Source: a bacterium (lineage in GTDB: Bacteria > SZUA-79 > Acidulodesulfobacterales > Acidulodesulfobacteraceae). Taken from it: a stretch of 64,000 bases of DNA. The stretch lies in the NCBI GenBank assembly GCA_021789605.1, contig JAJYJI010000001.1:113880-177879 (forward strand), in the 5' to 3' direction. Shown here one piece after another: positions 8,221-64,000 of the stretch (the stretch's first letter is position 1; each line of letters opens with the position of its first letter). Made by a program: the position numbers and the translations under genes. Below the pieces are notes generated by a model. The model was not told the origin of the DNA. It did not search any database and saw only the letters and a list, made by a program, of their open reading frames with translations.

Positions 8221-9027
8221 ATGGGAAAAATCAAAAAAACAAAAATAGGCATTAAATTTTTTTTCGCTGTTTTTCTATTTGCAGGCATTTTCGCGGCGCT
8301 GTCCGGCTGCGGATTATCGCAGGTTCAAAAAAAAGATAAGCTAAAATCAAATCTTTATTACAGGCTCGGCGCGGGTTTTTACCAGAACGGAAATTATATA
8401 AAGGCGATGCAGGAATTCATCAAAGCTAAGGCGCTCAATCCATATTCGGCAAAAAATTATAACGCGATAGGAGCCGTTTATATGAAGACCGGAAGAGCGA
8501 ACAAGGCTTTAAAGAATTTCGGCAGGGCACTGCGGTTAGACCCGGAATTTTCCGACGCCTATTATAACGCAGCCGTTATTTATATACGAAGAAAAGATTA
8601 TAATACGGCAGAGGCTTACTTAAAAAAAGCGTTAAAAAACCGTTTATACGCCAGTCCTTTTAAAAGTTACGCCAGATTGGCGCAGATATATTTAGCCGAA
8701 AATAAATCAGCCAAGGCGAAAAAAATATTGACCGTTTCTAAATTATTGAATAAAACATATTTTCTTACTTACTATGAACTCGGCGAATACTTCCTCGCCG
8801 AAGGAAAATTAGACGAAAGCCTTTATTATTACAAAAAAACTTTAAGATTGAATTCTTTTTTTATTCCCGCAAAATATAAAGAAGGCGTGATTTTTTTTAT
8901 GCAAAAAAAGTATGGCAAGGCAAAAAAAATATTCATAACGGTTTATAACCAAAATAAGCGCGGCGAGTATGGAATAAAATCGTTTAAATATTTAAAAAGG
9001 ATATTATTAATGCGCAGCGGCATTTAA
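8221..9027 (+). CDS. TPR-repeat lipoprotein
   Basis: Signal peptide with lipobox AALSGCG; several TPR motifs (AKNYNAIGAVYMKTGRANKALKNFGRALRLDPEFSDAYYNAAVIYIRR). Confidence 0.8.
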   Translation: MGKIKKTKIGIKFFFAVFLFAGIFAALSGCGLSQVQKKDKLKSNLYYRLGAGFYQNGNYIKAMQEFIKAKALNPYSAKNYNAIGAVYMKTGRANKALKNFGRALRLDPEFSDAYYNAAVIYIRRKDYNTAEAYLKKALKNRLYASPFKSYARLAQIYLAENKSAKAKKILTVSKLLNKTYFLTYYELGEYFLAEGKLDESLYYYKKTLRLNSFFIPAKYKEGVIFFMQKKYGKAKKIFITVYNQNKRGEYGIKSFKYLKRILLMRSGI

Positions 9028-48338: not shown

Positions 48339-48701
48339 ATGCCAAGAGTAAAAAGAGGTATTTTAACAAAAAAAAGACACAAAAGGGTGCTAAAGGCGGC
48401 AAAAGGATATTACGGAGCGAGAAGCCGGCTTTTTAAATCGGCTCATGAAGCCGTAAATAAAGCCCTTAACTATGCCTACAGGGACAGAAAAGTTAAAAAG
48501 AGGCAATTCAGGGGCATGTGGATTGTAAGAATCAACGCGGCATGTAGAGAAAACGGCATTTCTTACTCCAGATTTATCGACCTTTTAAATAAAAAAGAAA
48601 TAGGATTAAACAGAAAAGTTTTATCGGAAATTGCAATTTCCGACCCCGCCGCATTTTCCGGCATCGTCAGGGATATCCTTAAAGCGTCGGCATCGGTTTA
48701 G
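48339..48701 (+). CDS. rplT: 50S ribosomal protein L20 (TAG stop)
   Basis: [51 protein letters not shown]. Confidence 0.97.
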
Positions 48702-49556: not shown

Positions 49557-50350
49557 ATATCCTTCTTTCAAACGATGACGGGGTTTATGCGACGGGTATA
49601 AATATTTTATTCGAAGAGCTTAACGGCGTCGCAGACGTCGTCATAGTTGCGCCTGACAGGGAAAGAAGCGCAAGTTCCCATTCCCTAACCATCGACAGGC
49701 CGTTGAGGGTCAACGAGATAAAACCCAACATATTTTCGGTTGACGGCACCCCGACGGACGCGGTCAATATCGCAGTTCATTCCATTCTGAAAACCAGGCC
49801 TGATATTGTAATATCAGGAATAAACTACGGCGGCAATATTTGCGACGACGTCATTTATTCCGGAACGGTTTCCGCCGCGATGGAAGGGGCGGTTATGGGG
49901 ATAAAATCCATAGCCGTTTCTTTAGTAGTAAATAAAGGAGGAGGATATCTGCCGAAAGAGCCTTCTTCGGAAGAGGACCTGGAAGCGTCTTTCAGAAAAG
50001 CCGCCCGATTTGTTTCTAATCTTGCCAAGGTCTTTAACGGGAAAGGTTTTCCTAAACACACCCTTCTAAACGTAAATATTCCGCAAACGATAATCAAAAA
50101 GAAAAATGCCTTTGAATACAGGATTACGAAACAGGGAAAGCGCTATTTCGAAGATTTCGTGGTAGAGAAAATAGACCCGAGAGGAAGAAAATATTACTGG
50201 ATTTGGGGCAAAAACATAAGATTCGACGATATTTCGGGAAGCGATTACGAAGCCGTACACGACGGGCTTATTTCGGTCACTCCGATACATCTCGATATGA
50301 CGAACTATAAAGCTATGGAAAATTTAAAAAATATCGATTTATCTTTATGA
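49553..50350 (+). CDS. surE: 5'/3'-nucleotidase SurE
   Basis: NILLSNDDGVYATGINILFEEL; VAPDRERSASSHSLTIDRPLRV; VVISGINYGGN equivalent; GTVSAAMEG. Confidence 0.96.
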   Translation: MNILLSNDDGVYATGINILFEELNGVADVVIVAPDRERSASSHSLTIDRPLRVNEIKPNIFSVDGTPTDAVNIAVHSILKTRPDIVISGINYGGNICDDVIYSGTVSAAMEGAVMGIKSIAVSLVVNKGGGYLPKEPSSEEDLEASFRKAARFVSNLAKVFNGKGFPKHTLLNVNIPQTIIKKKNAFEYRITKQGKRYFEDFVVEKIDPRGRKYYWIWGKNIRFDDISGSDYEAVHDGLISVTPIHLDMTNYKAMENLKNIDLSL

Positions 50351-50371
50351 ATATTTTTAAACTCATATCAT

Positions 50372-51028
50372 ATGAAAAAAGGAATAGATAAGCTTATAGA
50401 AAAGCTTATGTCCAAAGGCATAAACGACAGGAAAGTGCTGGAAATCTTAAGAAAAGTTCCCCGCGAGATATTCGTGGAACAGCCGTTAAGGTCGGCTGAG
50501 CTTTGTTACGGAGAGACGCCGCTTCCGATAGGGCACAGTCAAACTATTTCAAGCGTTTATACCGTAGCTTTAATGACGCAGGCCCTTGATTTGAGTAAAA
50601 ATCATAAAGTTTTAGAAATAGGAACCGGTTCAGGCTATCAGGCGGCGATACTGTCTTTTTTAGCGGCGTCGGTTTTTACCATAGAGCGTATCAGGGATTT
50701 GTCTTTAAAGGCAAGGAGCGCCGTAGAGTCCCTAAATATACATAATATAACTTTCATTATTGGGGACGGAACGATAGGCTTTAACGAATACTCCCCTTAC
50801 GACAGGATACTTATAACCGCGTGTTCTCCGGATATACCCGCGCCGCTGTTTAAACAGCTGAACGAGGGCGGAACGATGGTTATACCAGTCGAGCGTAACG
50901 GTTCCCAGAGCATCTGCTTAATAGAAAAGAAAAACGGCGTTATGCATTCTAAGGATATCGCCCCCGCAAACTTTGTCAAACTTATAGGAAAAAACGGATA
51001 TGAAACGGAAAGGCCGCAACAGTTCTAA
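50372..51028 (+). CDS. pcm: Protein-L-isoaspartate O-methyltransferase
   Basis: VPREIFVEQPLRSAELCYGETPLPIGHSQTISSVYTVALMTQAL; VLEIGTGSGYQAAILS. Confidence 0.95.
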   Translation: MKKGIDKLIEKLMSKGINDRKVLEILRKVPREIFVEQPLRSAELCYGETPLPIGHSQTISSVYTVALMTQALDLSKNHKVLEIGTGSGYQAAILSFLAASVFTIERIRDLSLKARSAVESLNIHNITFIIGDGTIGFNEYSPYDRILITACSPDIPAPLFKQLNEGGTMVIPVERNGSQSICLIEKKNGVMHSKDIAPANFVKLIGKNGYETERPQQF

Positions 51029-51953
51029 AGAGAATGCCGAATCCTTTTCGGATGTCTTTGCGCCGGATTCCGGCAAAGCTCAGAACGTAAAAGAAAATTT
51101 AAAATACGTTAAATCCGAAGAAAATGTTATATCTAGCCAGTACCTTAAATATCTCAAAAAATATCCTCTATTAACGAAGGAGCAGGAATACGGCTTAGCG
51201 CTAAAAGTTATGGAGGGAGACGGCGATGCGCGGGATTTAATGGTCAAATCAAATCTGGGCCTTGTAATAAGCGTAGCAAAAAGGTTTCTCGGAAGGGGGC
51301 TTTCCTTCGACGACCTTATAATGGAGGGCAACATAGGGCTTATAAAAGCGGTGGACAGATTTAAGCCTAAAAAGGGCTTCAGATTTTCGACTTACGCCAT
51401 ATGGTGGATAAGGCAGGCGATAGAGCGAGGCATACTGAACTCGGGAAGACTTATAAGGCTTCCTATACACATATCCGAAAATCTTTACAAATATGCCAGA
51501 GCGGCAAAGGACGTTACGGGCGAACTTAAAAGAGAGCCTAATATCGGCGAAGTTGCCGGATACATGGGGATTAAAGAAAAAAAGTTAGAAAAGATTTTAA
51601 GTTTTATAGGCAATATTTACTCGTTAGACATGTCTTATTCCCAGAATCATGATGAAGAGGACCAGAATATGACCTTTTCGAACATAATCGGGGAGGACGA
51701 GAAAAACACTTCCGCTTTCGATATATTGGACAGGATTGAAACGCTTAAGCTTCTTAATAAATGGCTTTTTAACCTTACCGATATAGAAAGCAAAGTTATC
51801 GTATTAAGATACGGCTTAAATTACGAAAAACCGTGGACTCTTAACGAAATAGGAATTATTTTCGGGCTTACGAAAGAACGCATAAGGCAGATTGAAGTCA
51901 AGTCTTTAAAAAAACTAAGAAAAATGGCAGAGGACGCCGGATTCGGCAGGTGA
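51000..51953 (+). CDS. rpoS: Sigma-70 family factor, RpoS-like
   Basis: DLMVKSNLGLVISVAKRFLGRGLSFDDLIMEGNIGLIKAVDRFKPKKGFRFSTYAIWWIRQAIERGI; region 4 TLNEIGIIFGLTKERIRQIEVKSLKKLR; surE-pcm context. Confidence 0.85.
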   Translation: MKRKGRNSSKENAESFSDVFAPDSGKAQNVKENLKYVKSEENVISSQYLKYLKKYPLLTKEQEYGLALKVMEGDGDARDLMVKSNLGLVISVAKRFLGRGLSFDDLIMEGNIGLIKAVDRFKPKKGFRFSTYAIWWIRQAIERGILNSGRLIRLPIHISENLYKYARAAKDVTGELKREPNIGEVAGYMGIKEKKLEKILSFIGNIYSLDMSYSQNHDEEDQNMTFSNIIGEDEKNTSAFDILDRIETLKLLNKWLFNLTDIESKVIVLRYGLNYEKPWTLNEIGIIFGLTKERIRQIEVKSLKKLRKMAEDAGFGR

Positions 51954-53677
51954 TGCAAATGCGCAAGACGAGCCCGCCCCGGGAGCCTTTGAAAGGAACT
52001 TTTAACGGATACGGCGGATACGCGCCGGACGGCACGGTCGAAACAATAGAAACGCATATCTCCCGCGTTTTTCTAACCCAGAAATTTGCTTATAAGCAGA
52101 AGAAACCGGTCGATTACGGTTTTGTAGATTACACGTCTCTTCAAAAAAGAATTTTTTTTGCAAAAAAAGAACTGTCCCTGAACAGAAGGGCGTGTTCCGG
52201 CGTATATTTAGATTTGACGGAAATCAGGCAAAAAAACGGTAAGGTTTTTGCGGGTTATAAAGGCGGTTCCATTATAGACGTTTTCGTAAGAATGAAGCGG
52301 ATAGAACCCGTTCTTTTCTTAAGCGGCATATTAAAAAACGGAAGCGTAATTTCCGGCAAAATAACGGTAAACGATATTTTGAAAAGGGTCGCCAAAAGAA
52401 TTTATCTTTTTCATAAAAAAGCAAGAACTTCCAAGAGAATTTCAGGATTCGGCAAACTTAAAGCTTACAAAGAAAACTGGGACGATAATTTTTTAGCTAT
52501 AAGCGGGCTTTTTAAGAATAATATCGATGTCGAGCCGGACGGCGCGGGCAAATTCTACGAAAAATTTAAAGAAGCCGTGGATATTTACAATATATTCTTG
52601 CAGAGCGCAGAGTTTGCCGAATTTATAAAATTAAGGATGGATAACGGTTTTATCAGGGATGTCCACGGGGATTTAAGAATGGAACATATCGCCGTCATCT
52701 CTTTAGAAAAGAACAGCGGCATATGCCTCATGGATTGCGTAGAATTCGACGAAAAATTCAGATGCCAGGATTTATATTCTGACGTTGCTTTTTTGCTAAT
52801 GGATTTGGAGTATAACGGTTTTTTTTATGAATCGGGGACTTTTTTTGATTATTATAAAGCATTTTTTAATTATAAAAAGTTTATAGCCCCTTACGAAAGA
52901 TACGAACGGGAGGTAATGCCTTTTTTTAAAGCATACAGGGCGGCTGTCAGAGCCAAGATAGCCCTGCTTTCGCATAAAGAAAAAGACGCGTTAAGATATT
53001 TTAATCTTGCGGTATTTTATTTTAAACTTTTAAAAAAACCTGCGGTTATACTTAACTGCGGCCTTCCCGGCAGCGGCAAATCCGTAATTTCAAACCTGCT
53101 TGCGCGGTATTTTCGGGCAAAAATCTTTTCTTCCGACAAAATAAGGCGGGATTTATACGGTTCCGCCGATAAAATATTTAAATACGGGGCATACGCAAGC
53201 GGCAATGTTTATAAATTTATGCTGGAAGAAGGTTTAAAGGCGTTCGAAGAAAAAAGGCAAAGCGTGATATTCGATGCGGTGTTTTTAAAAAGAGCGCACC
53301 GGGAAAAGATAATGCAAAGTTTTAAAAAAAAGGACTGTATTTTTATATTTTTATATTCTAAAATATTTAATGAAAAGGAAGATATTATATTAAAAAGGCT
53401 GAAAGGCAGGGCGGGTTTTCATGAAGGAGATTATTCCGGCGAGGCGGAATACGGCAAATTTTATGAAAACGGCGGAGCCGATTATTCGGAAGCGGATTCG
53501 GCGGTTTATCTCAATATGAAAGAATCCTTCGAAGAGCCTTCGGAAAATGAATCCGGAGATATTTCCGGTGCGCGGGATTTTACGTTTATAACGATAGACG
53601 CTTCATTTGAGGCAAAAGACAGATTTCAAGCGGCAATGAACGGAATAATTTCATGCTCGGCGGAAAAGTATAATTGA
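51950..53677 (+). CDS. Aminoglycoside-phosphotransferase-like domain plus AAA/P-loop kinase (COG2187/COG0645-like)
   Basis: HGDLRMEHIAVISLEKNSGICLMDCVEFDEKFRCQDLYSDVAFLLMDL and NCGLPGSGKSVISNLLARYF. Confidence 0.85.
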   Translation: MMQMRKTSPPREPLKGTFNGYGGYAPDGTVETIETHISRVFLTQKFAYKQKKPVDYGFVDYTSLQKRIFFAKKELSLNRRACSGVYLDLTEIRQKNGKVFAGYKGGSIIDVFVRMKRIEPVLFLSGILKNGSVISGKITVNDILKRVAKRIYLFHKKARTSKRISGFGKLKAYKENWDDNFLAISGLFKNNIDVEPDGAGKFYEKFKEAVDIYNIFLQSAEFAEFIKLRMDNGFIRDVHGDLRMEHIAVISLEKNSGICLMDCVEFDEKFRCQDLYSDVAFLLMDLEYNGFFYESGTFFDYYKAFFNYKKFIAPYERYEREVMPFFKAYRAAVRAKIALLSHKEKDALRYFNLAVFYFKLLKKPAVILNCGLPGSGKSVISNLLARYFRAKIFSSDKIRRDLYGSADKIFKYGAYASGNVYKFMLEEGLKAFEEKRQSVIFDAVFLKRAHREKIMQSFKKKDCIFIFLYSKIFNEKEDIILKRLKGRAGFHEGDYSGEAEYGKFYENGGADYSEADSAVYLNMKESFEEPSENESGDISGARDFTFITIDASFEAKDRFQAAMNGIISCSAEKYN

Positions 53678-55500
53678 AGGAAACAAACGATATTTTTTAT
53701 AAAATTAAAGGCTTGTCCGGCAAATACGGGTATGAAATCTGCCTTTCCGTAATTTCGGTTATTTTTCTCATACTGCGCATCCGGCTTGCCTCGACTTTAA
53801 ATCTGGGAAACGATGAAGCCCACTATTACGTATGGTCGCTGAAGCCGTCTTTAGGCTATCTGGACGATGCTCCTTTCGTAAGCTACGTTATCGGTTTTTT
53901 TACCGGACTTATGGGAAAAAGCGAATTGTCCGTCAGATTTGGCGCGGTTATTTTTTCTTTTTTCGACGGGTTTTTAATATATTATCTGACGTATTTATTA
54001 TTTAGAAACAAAAGGGCGTCTTTTTTTGCTTTCCTGTTTTTTTTATCGGCGGCGATATTCGGCGCGGTTTTGTCGGTAATGATGCTTCCGGATGCGCCTC
54101 TTCTGTTTTTTTATCTTTGTTTTCTGATAGCATTTTATAGCGCAACCGAAGCTGGCGTCCCGGCCGGGACGCCAGCGGGAAGCGATTTAAAAATTTACGA
54201 TGGAAGAAAAAGGGAAAATCCGAAAAATCAAAAATCGGCAAACAGCTTTCCGGCGTGGATGCTTGCCGGATTTTTTCTAGGCCTTGCGTTTCTCAGCAAA
54301 TATACCGCGGCCCTTATTCCCCCCGCCGTGTTTTTATATTTGCTTGTTTCTAAAAAAAACAGGCGATTATTAAAAACAATTTATCCTTATGCCTCTATGG
54401 GCATTGCCCTGCTTGTATTTTCCCCCGTGATATACTGGAATTTTACCCATAATTTTATATCTTTCAGATTCCAGCTCTCTCACGGTTTTTCGCATCCCAA
54501 ACCCGGGTTGCCGCTTTTCCTTGCCGGATGGTTCGGTCAGTTTTTAGTGGTAACGCCCTTCGTTTATATATTTTTAATAGGAACGTTCGCGTATTCGCTG
54601 AAATCCATTTTACGGCAAAACGGCGGGGTTAACGGAGCAACGGGTGGAACCGCGGAAAAGAAAAACCGCTCCCGGGTTTACGAAGGCTTTTTGTATTCGG
54701 TTTGTTTATCGATGCCGGTTTTATTATTTTTTATAATTAACGGATATTCCCATAGGATACTTGTCCACTGGCCAGATATAGGCTATCTCCCCGCATTTCC
54801 GGCCATGGGATATGCCGCGGATTTAACCGCGGCAAGACGCGCCGCGCATATCGTCAAGAAATCTGTTTGGCGGACGTTTGCGAAATATTACGTATATTTT
54901 TCGCTCTTCTTCGCCTTTTTCCTGTCTTTCGTTTTATTCGGACAGATATATTATAATTTGATACCCGTAGGCAAAATAATAAAATACATAGATAAAGAAA
55001 AGCGGCTTAAAAAAGGCGGAATATTTCCTTTGATACCGCACATTCCCGGAAAAGCCGCGACCGCCGACATAACTAACGACCTTTTCGGCTGGAGGCGCGG
55101 AGCAAGATATATAAAAGCCGTTTACGAAAGTTTAGAGACGTCTTACGGACCAATTTTTATTATGACCCACCACTATGCCGTGGCCGACGAACTCGTATAT
55201 TACGGGGGCTTTAAACCCGCGGTAAATATTTATAACATATCTGGTTTTCTAAATCAGTACGATTTAGAGCAAAACTTAAATAAAATAAACGGAGAAAACG
55301 CCCTTTTTATTATGGATAATAAATATATGCTCGAGCCTGAGAAAAAATATAATAGATATTTTAAATCGATAAAAAAAATAGGCAGTCTCGACATATACGT
55401 AAAGTCAAGGTTAGTCAGGGTGTATTATCTGTATTTAATGAAAAGTTTTATGGCAAAAAAAGCCGCAAAACGATTAGCTTTAAGCCGTAGAATGTATTAA
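53674..55500 (+). CDS. GT39/PMT-family (ArnT-like) membrane glycosyltransferase
   Basis: NLGNDEAHYYVWSLKPSLGYLDDAPFVSYVIGFFTGLMGKSELSVRFGAV; many TM helices. Confidence 0.88.
   Translation: MKETNDIFYKIKGLSGKYGYEICLSVISVIFLILRIRLASTLNLGNDEAHYYVWSLKPSLGYLDDAPFVSYVIGFFTGLMGKSELSVRFGAVIFSFFDGFLIYYLTYLLFRNKRASFFAFLFFLSAAIFGAVLSVMMLPDAPLLFFYLCFLIAFYSATEAGVPAGTPAGSDLKIYDGRKRENPKNQKSANSFPAWMLAGFFLGLAFLSKYTAALIPPAVFLYLLVSKKNRRLLKTIYPYASMGIALLVFSPVIYWNFTHNFISFRFQLSHGFSHPKPGLPLFLAGWFGQFLVVTPFVYIFLIGTFAYSLKSILRQNGGVNGATGGTAEKKNRSRVYEGFLYSVCLSMPVLLFFIINGYSHRILVHWPDIGYLPAFPAMGYAADLTAARRAAHIVKKSVWRTFAKYYVYFSLFFAFFLSFVLFGQIYYNLIPVGKIIKYIDKEKRLKKGGIFPLIPHIPGKAATADITNDLFGWRRGARYIKAVYESLETSYGPIFIMTHHYAVADELVYYGGFKPAVNIYNISGFLNQYDLEQNLNKINGENALFIMDNKYMLEPEKKYNRYFKSIKKIGSLDIYVKSRLVRVYYLYLMKSFMAKKAAKRLALSRRMY
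54151..54176. repeat. 26-bp perfect palindrome GCTGGCGTCCCGG|CCGGGACGCCAGC inside a CDS
   Basis: Read directly; encodes AGVPAGTPA. Confidence 0.95.
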
Positions 55501-55526
55501 AGCGGATAAAAATTTTAGGGCAGATT

Positions 55527-56324
55527 ATGAAAATACTCGTCGCCGTTCCGACTTACAACGAAAAAGACAATATTAAAAAAATGATGGAAGCCGTTTTAAG
55601 TTTAAACGGAAACGAAACAGTGAAAAGGCTCAAAGCCGCCGTCAGCCTCGTAATAATCGACGACAATTCGCCGGACGGCACCCGCGAAATAGTAAAGGAT
55701 TTTCAAGGCAGGAACGGCGGAAGGGAAACGCCGGCTTTTTACAATGCCGGTTCAGGAGAAGCTGCGGTTTCGGAACGGCTGTTTCTTATAGAAAGGCAAA
55801 AAAAATCGGGGCTTGGAACCGCATACGCCGAGGCATTCAGATTCGCCTTAAATAAAGGCTTCGATTACGTCATCACCATGGATTGCGATTTTTCGCATAA
55901 TCCGGACGATATCCCCGGCTTTATTAGCCTGATGAACGATAAAAAATGCGGAATGATTGTAGGCTCCCGTTATTCCGGCGGAATAAGGATAATAAACTGG
56001 AGCATAAAAAGACTTTTAATTTCTTATTTTGCGAATATATACGCGAAATTGGTTACGGGAGTCAAAATAAGCGATTTGACGGGCGGGTTCAATATGTACG
56101 ACGCAAACTGCCTTAAAAAAATAAATTTAGACGGAATAAGCTCCAGAGGATATGCTTTTCAAATAGAAATGAAATACAGGGTGGTAAAAGAAGCCGGATG
56201 CAATTTTGAAGAATATCCCATAATATTTTACGAAAGGACGCTCGGCGATTCAAAGATGTCCAACGGAATTATTTTCGAGGCGTTTTTCGGGGTCGTCAAA
56301 CTGAGGCTTGGACTTTATAAGTGA
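55527..56324 (+). CDS. Dolichyl-phosphate/polyprenol-phosphate mannose synthase-like GT2
   Basis: KILVAVPTYNEKDNI; VIIDDNSPDGTREIV; YVITMDCDFSHNPDDIP; GSRYSGGIRIINWS. Confidence 0.92.
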   Translation: MKILVAVPTYNEKDNIKKMMEAVLSLNGNETVKRLKAAVSLVIIDDNSPDGTREIVKDFQGRNGGRETPAFYNAGSGEAAVSERLFLIERQKKSGLGTAYAEAFRFALNKGFDYVITMDCDFSHNPDDIPGFISLMNDKKCGMIVGSRYSGGIRIINWSIKRLLISYFANIYAKLVTGVKISDLTGGFNMYDANCLKKINLDGISSRGYAFQIEMKYRVVKEAGCNFEEYPIIFYERTLGDSKMSNGIIFEAFFGVVKLRLGLYK

Positions 56325-56376
56325 ACAATTTTATGGTATTATAAAATAATTTCATTTTAAAAGGAGGCAGTCGGTT

Positions 56377-56925
56377 ATGGAAAATTTGAAAGCTATAAAT
56401 TCTATCGGCAAATTAAAAGATTTTGTCAGGGAAATCAAAGACTTTCCCAAAAAAGGGATTAATTTTAAGGATATAACCCCGCTTCTTGCCGACCCGAAAG
56501 CTTTTGCATTTGCGATAGACGGACTCGTCAACCGTTATCTTTCCCAAAAAATAGGTTACGTCGTCTGCATAGAGGCGCGCGGTTTCGTAATCGGCGCTCC
56601 GCTCGCTTACAGGCTCGGCGCCGGAGTCATTATGGTAAGGAAACCCGGCAAGCTTCCTTATGAGTGCAGTTCTTTAAGCTATGACCTTGAATACGGAAGC
56701 GCCACCTTAGAAATTCATAAAGACGCTTTAAAAAAAGACGACAGGGTGATTATCGCCGACGACGTTCTGGCAACCGGCGGAACCGCTCTGGCGGCAATCA
56801 ATCTCATAGAGGGTTTCGGCGCAAAGGTTATAGACGCGGCATTTTTGGCAGAGCTTTCGTTCTTAAACGGCGCAGACAAATTAAAACCGCATAAAGTAAA
56901 TTCTTTATTAAAATTTGATTACTGA
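56377..56925 (+). CDS. apt: Adenine phosphoribosyltransferase
   Basis: DFPKKGINFKDITPLLADPKAF; EARGFVIGAPLAYRLGAGVIMVRKPGKLP; VIIADDVLATGGTALAA. Confidence 0.96.
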   Translation: MENLKAINSIGKLKDFVREIKDFPKKGINFKDITPLLADPKAFAFAIDGLVNRYLSQKIGYVVCIEARGFVIGAPLAYRLGAGVIMVRKPGKLPYECSSLSYDLEYGSATLEIHKDALKKDDRVIIADDVLATGGTALAAINLIEGFGAKVIDAAFLAELSFLNGADKLKPHKVNSLLKFDY

Positions 56926-56961
56926 TTTTAAAATATAAAATATCCGCGGTTACCCGCTTTT

Positions 56962-57011
56962 TTTCCGCCCGCGCGGAGGTCAGGGCGGCAAGGTCGGGCG
57001 GAAAGTTTTTT
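56962..57011 (+). terminator. Candidate terminator/hairpin TTTCCGCCCG…CGGGCGGAAA-GTTTTTT after apt
   Basis: 10-bp perfect arms 56962-56971 and 56995-57004 followed by T-run; large loop. Confidence 0.5.
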
Positions 57012-57029
57012 AAAAAAGGAGGAAAGCGT

Positions 57030-57419
57030 ATGAAAAAGGGTTTAACGGTTGTTTTTATCGCGGTTGTTATAGTTGCGGGTTATTTTGCTATTCGCGCAAT
57101 CACGTCTCCTGTCAGATTATCCGACGCACAGCTCGGTAAAAAACTCATAGAGTCCCACAAAAAGGGCATCGACTGTCTTGCTTGCCATACGATAAACGGC
57201 AAGGGGGGCGCCGTCGGCCCAAACCTTTCCAAAGAAGGCACGCTTAAACATACCGTTCATTGGCTTGAAGTCCAGATTGCCGAACCGTCGAAACATTATA
57301 AGCCTGCTTCCACGGTGAAAATCGGCGGAAAATCTTATATGGCTATTATGCCTGACCATAAGATGCTTTCAAAAAAGGAACTTTTAGAACTTGCATCGTA
57401 TCTAAATTCGTTAAAGTAA
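57030..57419 (+). CDS. Membrane-anchored monoheme class I c-type cytochrome
   Basis: N-terminal TM; DCLACHTINGKGGAVGPNLSKEG (CxxCH); distal YMAIMPDHKMLSKKELLELASYL Met ligand region. Confidence 0.9.
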   Translation: MKKGLTVVFIAVVIVAGYFAIRAITSPVRLSDAQLGKKLIESHKKGIDCLACHTINGKGGAVGPNLSKEGTLKHTVHWLEVQIAEPSKHYKPASTVKIGGKSYMAIMPDHKMLSKKELLELASYLNSLK

Positions 57420-57452
57420 ATATTTTCTAAACCGGGATTTGGGGCATCCTGG

Positions 57453-57484
57453 TACTTGACTAATTTAGTAAAGTATGGTTTACT
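57453..57484 (+). promoter_or_regulatory. Putative IscR/Rrf2-type operator overlapping a TTGACT-N17-TTTACT promoter, upstream of nifS-like gene (copy 1)
   Basis: tacttgactaatttagtaaagtatggtttact; imperfect palindrome ACTTGACTAA/TTAGTAAAGT; second copy at 58788. Confidence 0.75.
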
Positions 57485-57568
57485 TAATGTAAAAGATTTG
57501 AGCGGCTTAAAAAGCCGGTTTAAATAATTTTTTTTTATATGTTTAACTTTTAAAATTCGGAGGCAAAA

Positions 57569-58744
57569 TTGAAAATCATAAATTTTGACCATTTTGCGGC
57601 GACGAGAATGCGGCAGGAAGTAAAGGACGCTATGGAGCCGTTCTTCATTGCGGAATACGGCAATCCTCAAAGTATTCATACGCTCGGCGACGAACCGAGG
57701 GAAGCTCTCGGCAAAGCGAGGCTTCAGGCGGCGGAGCTTTTGAACGCTTCGAGCGGCGAAGTAATATTTACCGGCAGCGGTTCCGAATCCAACAATCTTG
57801 CCATAAAAGGAACGGCTTTTGCCAGAATGGATAAAGGAAAGCATATCGTAGTTTCCAAAATAGAGCATTTCAGCGTATTAAACGCCGTTAAGTCTTTGGC
57901 GAAACTCGGCTTCGAATTCAGCGAAGTTCCCGTAGACAAATACGGCTCGGTTGACCCCTCCGACGTTAAAAGCGCGCTAAAAAAAGATACCGTGCTTGTA
58001 AGCATTACGCAGGCCTCTAACGAAATAGGAACCATTCAAGACATTAAGGAGATTTCCAGAGTCGTTCACGAAAACTCCGCCGCTTATATGCATACCGACG
58101 CAAACACCTCCTGCGGTTTCATAGAAGCGGACGTTAAAGAACTCGGCGTCGATATGCTTTCCGCTTCTCCGCAAAGATTTTACGGCCCTAAGGGGGTAGG
58201 GCTGTTTTACCTTAAAAAGGGAACGCGCATAATGCCGTTAATCGACGGAGGCGTGCAGGAGTTCGGGAGAAGGGCGGGAACGGAAAACGTGCCGGCTATC
58301 GCTGGGGCGGGAACGGCATGCGAGCTTGCAAAAAAGGAGCTGAAGGACAGGACCGCCCATCTTTTGCGTATTCAAAAAACCATTATGGACGGGGTTCTTG
58401 GCGGCCTCGACGAGGTATATCTGAACGGACATCCCGAAAAACGGCTTCCAAACAACCTTAACTTTGTCGTAAAATACATCGAAGGCGAATCCATGCTTAT
58501 GTGGCTTAACAATAACGGCATTATGGTTGCAAGCGGTTCCGCTTGTACGTCTAAGATTTTAAAATCGTCCCACGTGCTAAGCGCAATAGGCGTCGACCCT
58601 GCGCTTGCGCAGGGCTCTTTGCTTATATCGTTAGGGGAAGACAACACTCTTGAAGACGCCCGGTATTTCGTCGGGGAACTGCCTCCCATAGTAAATAAGT
58701 TAAGGGCGATGTCGCCGCTGTACGAGGAAGCGGCAAAGAAATAA
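57569..58744 (+). CDS. NifS/IscS-family (class V aminotransferase fold) protein lacking the canonical PLP-binding lysine motif
   Basis: TGSGSESNNLAIKG; IEHFSVL; NEIGTIQDI; HTDANTSCG; active Cys loop VASGSACTSKILKSSHVL; SASPQRFYGPKGVG in place of SGHKIYGPKGVG; TTG start with CGGAGG RBS. Confidence 0.9.
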   Translation: MKIINFDHFAATRMRQEVKDAMEPFFIAEYGNPQSIHTLGDEPREALGKARLQAAELLNASSGEVIFTGSGSESNNLAIKGTAFARMDKGKHIVVSKIEHFSVLNAVKSLAKLGFEFSEVPVDKYGSVDPSDVKSALKKDTVLVSITQASNEIGTIQDIKEISRVVHENSAAYMHTDANTSCGFIEADVKELGVDMLSASPQRFYGPKGVGLFYLKKGTRIMPLIDGGVQEFGRRAGTENVPAIAGAGTACELAKKELKDRTAHLLRIQKTIMDGVLGGLDEVYLNGHPEKRLPNNLNFVVKYIEGESMLMWLNNNGIMVASGSACTSKILKSSHVLSAIGVDPALAQGSLLISLGEDNTLEDARYFVGELPPIVNKLRAMSPLYEEAAKK

Positions 58745-58787
58745 GAATTTGCCGTGATGCGGGGACGCAAAGCAAATCGGCGCAAAA

Positions 58788-58819
58788 TACTTGACTAATT
58801 TAGTAATGTATGGTTTAAT
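58788..58819 (+). promoter_or_regulatory. Putative IscR/Rrf2-type operator overlapping a TTGACT-N17-TTTAAT promoter, upstream of iscU (copy 2)
   Basis: tacttgactaatttagtaatgtatggtttaat; near-identical to 57453-57484. Confidence 0.75.
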
Positions 58820-58943
58820 TAAAATATGACGATGGATGAAGTTAATGTATGCGTAAAGGGGCATCATATGAGGCCGTCCGCCGCCGTCATTATCGTTATA
58901 TGATATGATAAATTTAAATAAAAAAATCTGGAGGAAAAAAATT

Positions 58944-59390
58944 ATGCCTGTATATTCCGAAAAAGTTATGGACCATTTTCAGCATCCGAGGAACGTAGGA
59001 GAGATAGAAAATGCCGACGGGGTAGGGGAACTCGGCAATCCTACCTGCGGCGACATAATGAAAATGTACATAAAGGTCAAAGACGATAAAATAGACGATA
59101 TAAAATTTAAAACTTTCGGGTGCGGCGCGGCTATAGCTACAAGTTCTATGGTGACTGAACTCGTCAAAGGAAAGACGCTTGAAGAGGCGGAAAAGATTTC
59201 CAACGCAACCGTAGCCGAGGCTTTAGACGGACTGCCTCCCGTCAAGATGCACTGTTCCAATCTTGCCGCGGACGCGCTTCATCTTGCAATACACGATTAC
59301 AAATCTCGCAAGGAAGGCAAAGGCCCGATAGGCAAGGTCGAAACTCCGGAGCACGACGAAGACGAGTCCGCGCTGCTGGAGCATACATAA
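58944..59390 (+). CDS. iscU: Fe-S cluster scaffold IscU/NifU N-terminal-type
   Basis: MPVYSEKVMDHFQHPRNVGEIENADGVGELGNPTCGDIMKMYIKV; FKTFGCGAAIATSSMVTELVKGKT; PPVKMHCSNLAADAL; GGAGG RBS before this ATG rather than the ORF-track start at 58905. Confidence 0.95.
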   Translation: MPVYSEKVMDHFQHPRNVGEIENADGVGELGNPTCGDIMKMYIKVKDDKIDDIKFKTFGCGAAIATSSMVTELVKGKTLEEAEKISNATVAEALDGLPPVKMHCSNLAADALHLAIHDYKSRKEGKGPIGKVETPEHDEDESALLEHT

Positions 59391-59482
59391 AACGCGCATT
59401 TTTAATGCGGCTTAAACCGCGTAAAAATAAAGCGGATAGGTTTTGCGCGAAATAATTTAATAAAGGAACGAAAGGGTCGAAC

Positions 59483-59707
59483 ATGAAATACGATTGCGAA
59501 CTTGACACTTTTGGACTGTCATGCCCCGTCCCAATAATGAAGGTCGCGGAGGAGTTTAAGGAAATGCCGGACGGTTCCGTCTTAAAAGTTACCGCCTCGG
59601 ACGAAGGCATAATAGAAGACTTGAAAAGCTACTGCAAAAAAACGGGACACGAGTTTCTGTCCTATGAAATAAGCCTGCCCGAATATATAGTTTACGTAAG
59701 AAAATAA
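59483..59707 (+). CDS. TusA-family sulfurtransferase (copy 2)
   Basis: LDTFGLSCPVPIMKVAEEFKEMPDGSVLKVTASDEG. Confidence 0.92.
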   Translation: MKYDCELDTFGLSCPVPIMKVAEEFKEMPDGSVLKVTASDEGIIEDLKSYCKKTGHEFLSYEISLPEYIVYVRK

Positions 59708-59719
59708 AAAAATAAATCC

Positions 59720-59747
59720 TTGACATAATTAAAATAGGGATTATAAT
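59720..59747 (+). promoter_or_regulatory. Consensus sigma70-type promoter TTGACA-N16-TATAAT (P1 of cytochrome-porin gene)
   Basis: -35 59720-59725, -10 59742-59747. Confidence 0.7.
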
Positions 59748-59821
59748 TAAAACATAAAAACATTGCGTCCGGCAGCTAAAATTATTTTAGTCCGGCACTG
59801 TAAAAAATTTTAATTTAAGTA

Positions 59822-59850
59822 TTGACAAAAAACAATTTTAGATATATAAA
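59822..59850 (+). promoter_or_regulatory. Consensus sigma70-type promoter TTGACA-N17-TATAAA (P2 of cytochrome-porin gene)
   Basis: -35 59822-59827, -10 59845-59850. Confidence 0.7.
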
Positions 59851-60063
59851 ATATAAGATGATATGAAATGTTCTTTTTTGCTGAAAAATTAATAAACCCG
59901 CGTATTGCCGTCAAAGGAAGCGGAAATAAAATTTTTTAAAAAAAATAATATAAAAATCTATAAGGAGGTGGAAGAAAAGAAGATTTAAAATTTGCAGTTA
60001 TATGTTCGTTAATCCTAATTTTTATTAATTTTTTTAACTTTAACTTTAAGAGAGAGGAAAGTT

Positions 60064-61452
60064 ATGAAAAAGAAATTATCAGTAACTATTGTTGCGTTGT
60101 TTTTTCTGGCGCTTTCATTTGCCATGATGCCCAGAAAATCAAGCGCGATTCCGGCATTTAGCCAAAAGTATCATTTTTCATGCGCAGTTTGCCACACCGT
60201 ATTCCCTAATCTAAATCCTTTCGGCAGAGCATTCTGGAGAAACGGATTCAGGCTTCCAGGCACGAACGGAACTCCCGCCGATGCGACGCAAATCGCCCAA
60301 GGCTTAAGCCTTCCGAACCCGTGGCCGATTCCCATAATGCTGGAGCCCATCATCAGCTATCAGCATACGACCAATGAAAATGTCAGCAACCAAACAGACC
60401 CGTTCGGCGCAGGAGTCGATGCGGTAAGCGCGGGCTCATTCAATTTATATACGCCCCTTGCCGAAACGATGTCTTTTTATGTTCACTTAGGAGTAGCGGC
60501 AGGCGGCGCCATGGGAGATAAGCAGATATTTGCCTCGATTAACGGCTTAGGCGGCGGATTAGGCCTTCCTTCGCATCTGTTCAATCTTAAACTCGGCCAG
60601 GTTACTACCGCAAGCCCATATTTTTATAGGCAGATGCCGTTTTATCTTCCCGACGGCCCGAACGGCAACGGTCAGGGTTTAAATATCGGATACGATACAG
60701 AAGGAGGATTATTAATACATTCCAGAAATGCGGGATTTGCCCTTTACGGAACGCCCGGCTATCATTTATGGTATAAAGTATCCGTTACGAACGACAGCAC
60801 GGAAGGCGCGGGCGTACACTCTGGCGGAGAAGGAACCGCATTATCCGCCACCGGCGATAACGCCATGGAATATTCCTACCAGTTAAAAGAATATGCCCCG
60901 TTGCCGATGGGCCAGCTTGAACTCGGTTATTACGGCGCAGCCGTAGCAGAACCCGTTACCGCCGCAGGAAATACATGGACCAACCGCGTATTGGTAAACG
61001 GCGCCGATATAGACCTTGCAAACGCGGTTTACGAACTTGGCCTGACCTATATGGTCCAGAGCGATTCAAATCCCTATGCCATGAGCGGCGCCAAGCTGCC
61101 CGCGGGAGTTACCGATACGTCTAACGCTTACAGCACGTTCGAGGTTTACGGCCGCTATACATTGCCGGTCATGAGCAACGGAATAATGCTTTCTGCGGAT
61201 TATGCGCAATATTCATGGGCGCATAAGGATTCTCAGCTGGCGTTCATAAACGGCGCCAATTCGACAGTCGATAACGTCGGTTTATACGGAGGCGCTCTGC
61301 TTCCCGGCACTTCCTACAACGGCGTAAAAGACTCTCTTGCGCTTGAGGCCGAAATAAATTTGGCTTATAATGCGCATCTTTATCTTGGATATACAATCAC
61401 CAACCAGAACGAAGACAATCTTTTAGGCACCGGTTTAGACTTTGCGTTTTAA
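60064..61452 (+). CDS. Cyc2-like outer-membrane fused monoheme cytochrome-porin
   Basis: Signal peptide then IPAFSQKYHFSCAVCHTVFPNLNPFGRAFWRNGFRLPG; ~400-aa amphipathic beta-rich remainder ending LLGTGLDFAF (terminal Phe). Confidence 0.75.
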   Translation: MKKKLSVTIVALFFLALSFAMMPRKSSAIPAFSQKYHFSCAVCHTVFPNLNPFGRAFWRNGFRLPGTNGTPADATQIAQGLSLPNPWPIPIMLEPIISYQHTTNENVSNQTDPFGAGVDAVSAGSFNLYTPLAETMSFYVHLGVAAGGAMGDKQIFASINGLGGGLGLPSHLFNLKLGQVTTASPYFYRQMPFYLPDGPNGNGQGLNIGYDTEGGLLIHSRNAGFALYGTPGYHLWYKVSVTNDSTEGAGVHSGGEGTALSATGDNAMEYSYQLKEYAPLPMGQLELGYYGAAVAEPVTAAGNTWTNRVLVNGADIDLANAVYELGLTYMVQSDSNPYAMSGAKLPAGVTDTSNAYSTFEVYGRYTLPVMSNGIMLSADYAQYSWAHKDSQLAFINGANSTVDNVGLYGGALLPGTSYNGVKDSLALEAEINLAYNAHLYLGYTITNQNEDNLLGTGLDFAF

Positions 61453-61624: not shown

Positions 61625-63076
61625 ATGAATACTTTTAATCCGAGGCATATTTTAAGAAAAATTTTATCGGTGCCGATTCATATAAAAATAATCGGAATCT
61701 TATTTGCCGCGGTTATAGTTTTAGAATTGGCGACGATTGTTTCTTTGTATATAATTTTCAGCGGGCGGGAATATTCGCGCATAGTAAAAACCGGAAATGC
61801 GGCGGGTAAAATTATTGCATACAGGATAAAGGGCTATCTTAAAGAAGGCGATACGCTAAAACTTAAAAAGATGCTTCGTTATAACATTTCAATAAGTCCT
61901 ATATTGATGTATATCGTAGTCAGAACAAACGGCGGCAGGATAATCGCTTCCGCTTCTAAAAAAGGGGTATCCGAAGCGGCTCCGAAATACGGCTTTTTAC
62001 GGCTGCGCGGCGGCGGCAAGCCTTCCGGCGCATTTATTAAATCTCCATACGGGCATATAATAAATTTAAGCTTTCCGGTCATAGAAGGTAAAGGCGGCGG
62101 GCTTAATGCGGCTGGAACGAAAATAGGCACCGTCGCCATAGGACTTCTTTTCGATTCTTTTCATTATTTTTTTAAAATTACCGTTACTTTCATAATATTC
62201 GTATTGTTTCCGCTTATAATATTTACTGTAATATTTTTCAGGTGGATTTCGCTGTCGGTTCTTAAACCGCTGTCCGACCTTTCGACAGCCGCGTATTCGG
62301 CAAAAAACGGAGATTACGGCATAGTCGTGCCGACGCCGGATTTAGCCGACAAAAAACTTGCCGGACTGATAACCGGATTTAACGATATGCTGGCCGCTTT
62401 CAATAAAGCCGAATATAAGTGGGAAACCAAGGATTTGCGGAGGAAAGAATTTTTAGCGGAAATTATAGCCGCGCAGGAATCGGAAAGGAAAAAACTTTCG
62501 AGAGAACTGCACGACGAATTAGAACAATTTTTAATTTACATAAATATGAAGTTCGGAATATTGCAAAAGTTAGACAGCGCGGCGCTTAGAAACGAATGCA
62601 TCAAAGAAATGAGGCAGGGCATACTGGAGCAGTTGGATATTATAAAAAATATAACAAAAGAATTAAGGCCGGGCTTAGTTTACGAACTTGGGCTGTATAA
62701 GGCCTTAATGCAATATGCGGAAGAAATAAAATCCAACCATAATATACAGGTAGAAATATACGCGGCGGGAATGAAAGAATTCAAAGCAGGCGAGGATATA
62801 GAGATAGGCATATACAGAATTCTTTAGGAAGCCTTTTCAAATATAATAAGGCATAGCAAAGCATCTTCGGTAAAAATCGAAATAAATTTTGAAAATTGCG
62901 TATTTAAAGCTATAATCGTAGATAACGGAACAGGTTTTAAATATAATAAAAAATTCGGCGAGAATTACGGCATCAACGGCATGAAAGAAAGAGCCGAGAT
63001 ACTTGGGGGCACCTTGCATATAAAAACGAAGCATGGGTCCGGCGTTACGGTAATATTAAACATACCCGTAAAATAA
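61625..63076 (+). pseudogene. NarX-type sensor histidine kinase (HAMP, HisKA_3, HATPase_c) interrupted by an in-frame TAG at 62825-62827
   Basis: 61625-62827 encodes TM, HAMP and RKKLSRELHDELEQF; same frame continues after TAG as EAFSNIIRHSKASSVKIEINFENCVFKAIIVDNGTGFKYNKKFGENYGINGMKERAEILGGTLHIKTKHGSGVTVILNIPVK*. Confidence 0.92.
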
Positions 63077-63106: not shown

Positions 63107-63766
63107 ATGAAAAAAATAACAGTCGTAATTGCGGACGACCATCCTATCGTAATTTCAGGCGTTAAATCCTTGCTGTCCATGCAAAGCGATATAGATATCG
63201 CAGGAGAAGCCGCCGGCTTGGACGCTATGCTTGAACTAGCAGGAGAACTCAAGCCGGACGTCCTGCTTCTCGATATATCTTTTAACGATAAAAGCAGTCT
63301 GGATTACATAGAAGAAATAAAAAACAAATCTCCGAAAACCAAAATATTAATGCTTACTATGCACGAAGAGTTACCCTTTTTGCGGGAGGCGTTAAGCAGG
63401 GGGGCGGCCGGATTTCTTACAAAGCGCTCCCTTTACGAAGACCTTGTATATGCAGTGAAATCGATTGTTAAAGGCGGAACTTATATCCATCCCCACATGG
63501 CGGATAAGCTTGCGTGCAATATTTGCGGCAGCGGCAATGCTCCGGACAAAAGCGCGGAAGAAATTTTATGGATGTCGTTAAGCAAACGCGAGCAGGAAGT
63601 ATTGGTAGGCGTAGCCAAAGGGCTTTCCAATAAGGAAATAGGCTTAAATCACGACCTCAGCGAAAAAACCGTCGCTACATACAGGCTGCGCGGCTTAGCC
63701 AAGATTAAAATCTCCAATAAAGCAAATCTTTTGGAACTTTGCCTTAAATTGGGACATATAAAATAG
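63107..63766 (+). CDS. NarL/FixJ-family response regulator (TAG stop)
   Basis: VVIADDHPIVISGVKSLL; DVLLLDISFND; LSKREQEVLVGVAKGLSNKEIGLNHDLSEKTVATYRLRGLAKI. Confidence 0.95.
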   Translation: MKKITVVIADDHPIVISGVKSLLSMQSDIDIAGEAAGLDAMLELAGELKPDVLLLDISFNDKSSLDYIEEIKNKSPKTKILMLTMHEELPFLREALSRGAAGFLTKRSLYEDLVYAVKSIVKGGTYIHPHMADKLACNICGSGNAPDKSAEEILWMSLSKREQEVLVGVAKGLSNKEIGLNHDLSEKTVATYRLRGLAKIKISNKANLLELCLKLGHIK

Positions 63767-64000
63767 ACTGCATAATTCAATAAAACTAATATTTTGTATT
63801 ATATAAACCTACATTTTGAATATATTTTCTTACAATAGAATACCATATTAATACTTTCAATATATAGCAATATCCCTAAATTGCCGATAGAAACCATTCG
63901 CCTCTATCCTGACCCATTTTTAAGGGATTTTTTTAAGTAAAATTAATTTTCTGTAAAAAATAATTTCACATTTTTATAGAAATCATCTTTTTTTAAAAAA

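Follow-up and report, generated by a model that had tools for sequence, protein, structure and literature searches.

Many bacterial genes that otherwise remain under purifying selection have been reported to contain in-frame stop codons, most of them short-lived (PMC7918605). Among signalling proteins, the closest described relatives of the gene considered here are the HisKA_3 kinases of the NarX/NarQ/UhpB/MctS group, and in NarX a DxxxQ motif is required for phosphatase activity (PMC3510030). In a 64,000-nucleotide stretch of bacterial DNA (hereafter the window), a NarX/UhpB-type histidine kinase (HK) gene is divided by a single amber codon. The account that we favour, with a probability of roughly 0.83, is that of a recently inactivated kinase gene within a duplicated kinase-regulator-porin cluster that is itself in decay.

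An amber codon within a kinase frame

The kinase frame opens with ATG at position 61625 and runs on the forward strand to a premature TAG at 62825-62827, specifying 400 amino acids; from 62828 the same frame continues through 82 open codons to the original TAA at 63074-63076. The 5' part of the gene (61625-62827) encodes a membrane sensor and the HisKA_3 (DHp) region, with the phospho-acceptor His set in the sequence RELHDELEQ, which includes DxxxQ. The in-frame remnant (62828-63076, forward strand), expected to be untranslated, holds the rest of the N-box and the G1 and G2 boxes of HATPase_c, on to the TAA. The first half alone scores 33.8 bits against the Pfam HisKA_3 model (PF07730, cut-off 24), and the post-TAG half alone scores 32.3 bits against HATPase_c (E = 1.5e-7), above the cut-off of that model. 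A stop-free frame of 82 codons was obtained in 0.12% of shuffles of the post-TAG stretch, whose remaining two forward frames contain 11 and 7 stops. The sequence-only reading of this DNA, which had described an amber-split kinase with an 82-codon ATPase C-terminus in frame, is thus borne out both in its coordinates and in the separate scores of the two domains. HATPase_c sits only beyond the TAG, and no copy of it was found in an uninterrupted frame with HisKA_3; for this reason, we do not class the gene among intact kinases.

The amber codon replaces a residue five positions ahead of the N-box Asn (Q-E-A-F-S-N). Gln occupies this position in 25 of the 25 other motif-matched sequences, which include a few overlapping loci, encoded by CAG in 15 and by CAA in 10, and the earlier proposal that a conserved Gln had been replaced is upheld by this comparison. 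As CAG is the commoner Gln codon of the bin (2762 CAG against 1268 CAA), the TAG is most simply regarded as a one-base change from CAG. Relative to its intact homologues, the gene carries a single stop at a conserved sense position, as a nonsense pseudogene does.

Two copies come nearest to this kinase, one on another contig of the bin, C36 (59% identical), the other in G003, a sister species (58%). The sensor shares 50.7% of its amino acids with the C36 copy, as against 68.3% for the stretch running from the DHp region up to the stop and 69.5% for the part beyond the stop. For the same pair, whose synonymous sites approach saturation, dN amounts to 0.223 beyond the TAG, compared with 0.226 for the DHp part ahead of it. 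Relaxed constraint past the stop, which is expected in old pseudogenes and optional in recent ones, was not observed, and this fits a recent event: post-TAG substitutions being as constrained as those that precede the stop, the loss of the kinase appears to be recent and its decay barely begun. Judged from these alignments, the lesion is probably young relative to the separation of the compared copies, which at 58-59% identity set no finer age. Neither genome_contigs nor viral_contigs yielded close relatives. The stop fits the pattern of common, mostly short-lived in-frame stops in bacteria (PMC7918605).

Use of TAG in this genome

As had been pointed out from the sequence, TAG is a normal terminator here, ending both rplT (48699-48701) and the response regulator gene (63764-63766). 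Within the 837 kb surveyed (42% of the genome), it terminates 61 of the 484 ORFs that have 250 codons or more and is the rarest terminator of this genome. A whole-segment survey of the same 837 kb recovered the kinase stop as the sole TAG splitting two substantial coding-like stretches, while a local-score survey yielded only antisense-like noise and missed the kinase. Such codon-score surveys are blind to stops near the start of a gene, and one further in-frame TAG, in the porin gene on contig C86 described below, surfaced by homology. No stop-broken domain other than the HATPase_c of this kinase was present among 17 HATPase_c, 18 ABC and 23 receiver matches.

RF1 is present and above its cut-off, the match to the PylS model falls below its cut-off, and no tRNA with a CUA anticodon occurs among the 35 tRNAs found, a set that is incomplete (Asn, Ile and others being absent). 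The RNA structure around the kinase stop is unremarkable in comparison with shuffled sequences (z = -1.3), and the many in-frame TAGs that mark recoding or suppression were not encountered in the 837 kb. Suppressed readthrough, one of the explanations that had been offered for the split frame, is disfavoured by the RF1, tRNA and PylS results and by the lack of any other substantial TAG split in the 837 kb.

Genome-wide recoding of TAG was considered and rejected, on account of RF1, the sub-threshold PylS match, the ordinary use of the codon as a stop, the 35 tRNAs without a CUA anticodon and the one substantial split in the 837 kb. With regard to the tRNA set itself, the 35 members include two tRNA-Glu(CTC) and no tRNA-Glu(TTC), Asn or Ile species, which probably reflects assembly gaps.

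The cluster beyond the contig end

The kinase gene is followed by an intact LuxR/NarL-type response regulator (RR) gene of the same cluster (63107-63766, forward strand), which is 68-70% identical to the regulators of the sister clusters. Next comes regulator-porin intergenic DNA (63767-63873), which can be aligned to its counterparts in C36 and G003, and then the first 127 bases of an IS1380-family element (63874-64000), inside which the window's contig (C3) ends. A search with the terminal 234 bases of the window uncovered an overlap with contig C86, of which positions 1-127 are identical to the truncated element. In full, the element measures 1,623 bp, from window position 63874 to C86:1623, and encodes a transposase on the minus strand (C86:218-1552; NCBIfam IS1380, 216.8 bits). 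Its inverted ends are ..TTGCCGATAGAAA and TTTCTATCGGCAA.., and the pentamer AATAT lies directly outside both, the left copy of this 5-bp target duplication at 63869-63873 and the right copy at C86:1624-1628. An automatic scan for terminal inverted repeats missed the ends of the element, which were instead read from the flanks and then checked.

Once the element and one pentamer are removed, the two flanks give an unbroken alignment to the DNA between regulator and porin in both C36 and G003, the joined site reading GCAATAT followed by CTCCGGCTTTATCTTTAA, against GCAATATATCCGACTTTATCTTTAA in C36. Transposase, terminal inverted repeats, target duplication and an uninterrupted sister site were all found. 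Because the uninterrupted site exists in both sister clusters, C3 and C86 are to be regarded as neighbours, a join supported by the overlap of two assembled contigs within a repeated element, by the target duplication and by the sister sites, and not by reads. The element recurs in the bin as other partial copies, which account for the assembly break at this point.

The cluster's porin gene (C86:1856-3229), which encodes a CxxCH motif, is located on the far side of the element and was found by a search with the neighbouring porin of the window. It contains one in-frame TAG (C86:1952-1954) just after the signal peptide, with 32 residues before the stop, and is otherwise a full-length frame; apart from their stops, the kinase and porin frames are undamaged and free of frameshifts. 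Intact sister clusters, on C36 and in G003, carry HK, RR, porin and cytochrome c genes in that order. All three porins are preceded, roughly 110-145 bp upstream of their starts, by a 37-base dyad (GTCTTTAAG..GAACTTATGG..CTTAAAGAC) that displays compensatory changes and a conserved loop (L093 on C86, 1711-1749; L069 on C36, 2637-2677, minus strand; L071 on contig C46 of G003, 8542-8578). A search of 41 genomes located the dyad only before porins linked to HK-RR pairs, and Rfam provided no match; judging from its sequence and placement, it is a probable regulator site or leader hairpin. Confined as it is to the C86, C36 and G003 porins, the dyad connects the first of these porins with the HK-RR cluster.

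The porin-like gene upstream of the kinase (60064-61452, forward strand) is intact, bears the same CxxCH motif and is homologous to the cluster's porin. This family, multi-copy in the genus and characterized by an N-terminal CxxCH, has no Pfam or NCBIfam match. Its relatives occur genus-wide in this region without a linked HK-RR pair, and the window gene is probably a separate, older resident that lies outside the HK-RR-porin cluster. Gene order near the porin, NifU and IscS (window positions 50000-61452, compared with loci L113-L119) is rearranged relative to other members of the genus, and in those members the porin/NifU/IscS region contains no HK-RR pair.

The bin itself (G000) is a fragmented, metagenome-like assembly of 87 contigs with 5.2% contamination and, given that level of contamination, the short contig C36 may derive from another strain.

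Competing explanations and known systems

Three independent lesions have accumulated in this one kinase-regulator-porin cluster, and an intact sister cluster resides in the same bin, on C36. In the history that we infer, the ancestral order would have been HK, RR and porin, as on C36 and in G003; in the copy now spread over C3 and C86, the kinase would have gained a nonsense change at the Gln ahead of the N-box, the porin would have gained its own in-frame TAG just past the signal peptide, and the IS1380 element would have inserted between regulator and porin. Going by its sequence, the 400-residue kinase product, devoid of an ATP-binding domain, should not autophosphorylate, and the intact regulator may either respond to other donors or stand idle. 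With the ATP-binding domain of the kinase missing and the porin truncated, loss of function is the likely outcome, presumably buffered by the intact sister cluster. The linked porin has a nonsense lesion of its own, which, together with the insertion, argues that the cluster is really decaying. Of the options put forward by the sequence-only reading, these two lesions favour a recent mutation, fixed or polymorphic, and make a sequencing error less likely.

A consensus error, or a mixture of strains in which a minority allele became the consensus, would nevertheless be invited by so fragmented and contaminated an assembly, the more so with the kinase stop 1.2 kb from a contig end. We consider this explanation unlikely: the cluster also contains another nonsense codon and an entire IS insertion, the bin yielded no further, intact allele of the kinase, and a single substantial TAG split in 837 kb indicates that such errors are rare. 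Leaky or programmed readthrough, whereby near-cognate decoding of UAG would supply a low level of full-length kinase, could draw on the equal constraint on either side of the TAG and on the many bacterial in-frame stops reported under purifying selection (PMC7918605), but is rated as less probable still. In addition to the release factor, PylS, incomplete tRNA and RNA structure results given above, homologues have no stop at that position, and the cluster has two further lesions.

It is also conceivable that the 400-residue product functions without its ATPase domain, either as a phosphatase of the regulator or as the trans-phosphorylated partner of the C36 kinase in a heterodimer. The retained DxxxQ of RELHDELEQ and the intact sister kinase in the bin, 68% identical in the DHp region, are compatible with such a role, which we hold to be more doubtful again, as the remnant keeps kinase-type constraint (so that any truncated role would be new), the truncation is conserved in no relative and the partner porin is broken as well. 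Against decay, the two stops of this cluster are of one kind, TAG, the rarest terminator here, which might be a sign of suppression, and the frames are otherwise undamaged; the extension of this idea of suppression, in which readthrough of UAG expresses the kinase and its partner porin jointly at a low level, so that one decoding event gates the signalling-porin cluster, strikes us as the most far-fetched of these proposals.

Most likely, the split kinase belongs to a redundant signalling cluster of an ordinary kind, silenced only recently, and does not represent a new way of reading a stop codon.

A striking oddity of a single gene thus turns ordinary once the locus is traced past the contig break, where three lesions prove to share one duplicated cluster. 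The locus offers a clear picture of a two-component system inactivated only recently, with its intact sister alongside, and a caution that an isolated in-frame stop should not be taken as recoding.

With the HisKA_3 kinases of the NarX/NarQ/UhpB/MctS group and their NarL/UhpA-type regulators, the locus shares both kinase domains, the His box, N-box, G1 and G2, and an adjacent LuxR-type regulator; it differs in scoring far short of the equivalog cut-offs and in that the present frame is interrupted ahead of the ATP-binding domain. The insertion resembles other IS1380-family elements in its DDE transposase, above the NCBIfam cut-off, its inverted ends and its 5-bp duplication, and nothing about it is unusual. 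Akin to the in-frame stops already described in bacteria (PMC7918605), the kinase lesion is a single TAG where homologues carry CAG or CAA, with constraint on both sides; unlike them, it is accompanied by breaks in the partner porin gene and in the DNA between regulator and porin, a pattern that points to decay of the whole cluster.
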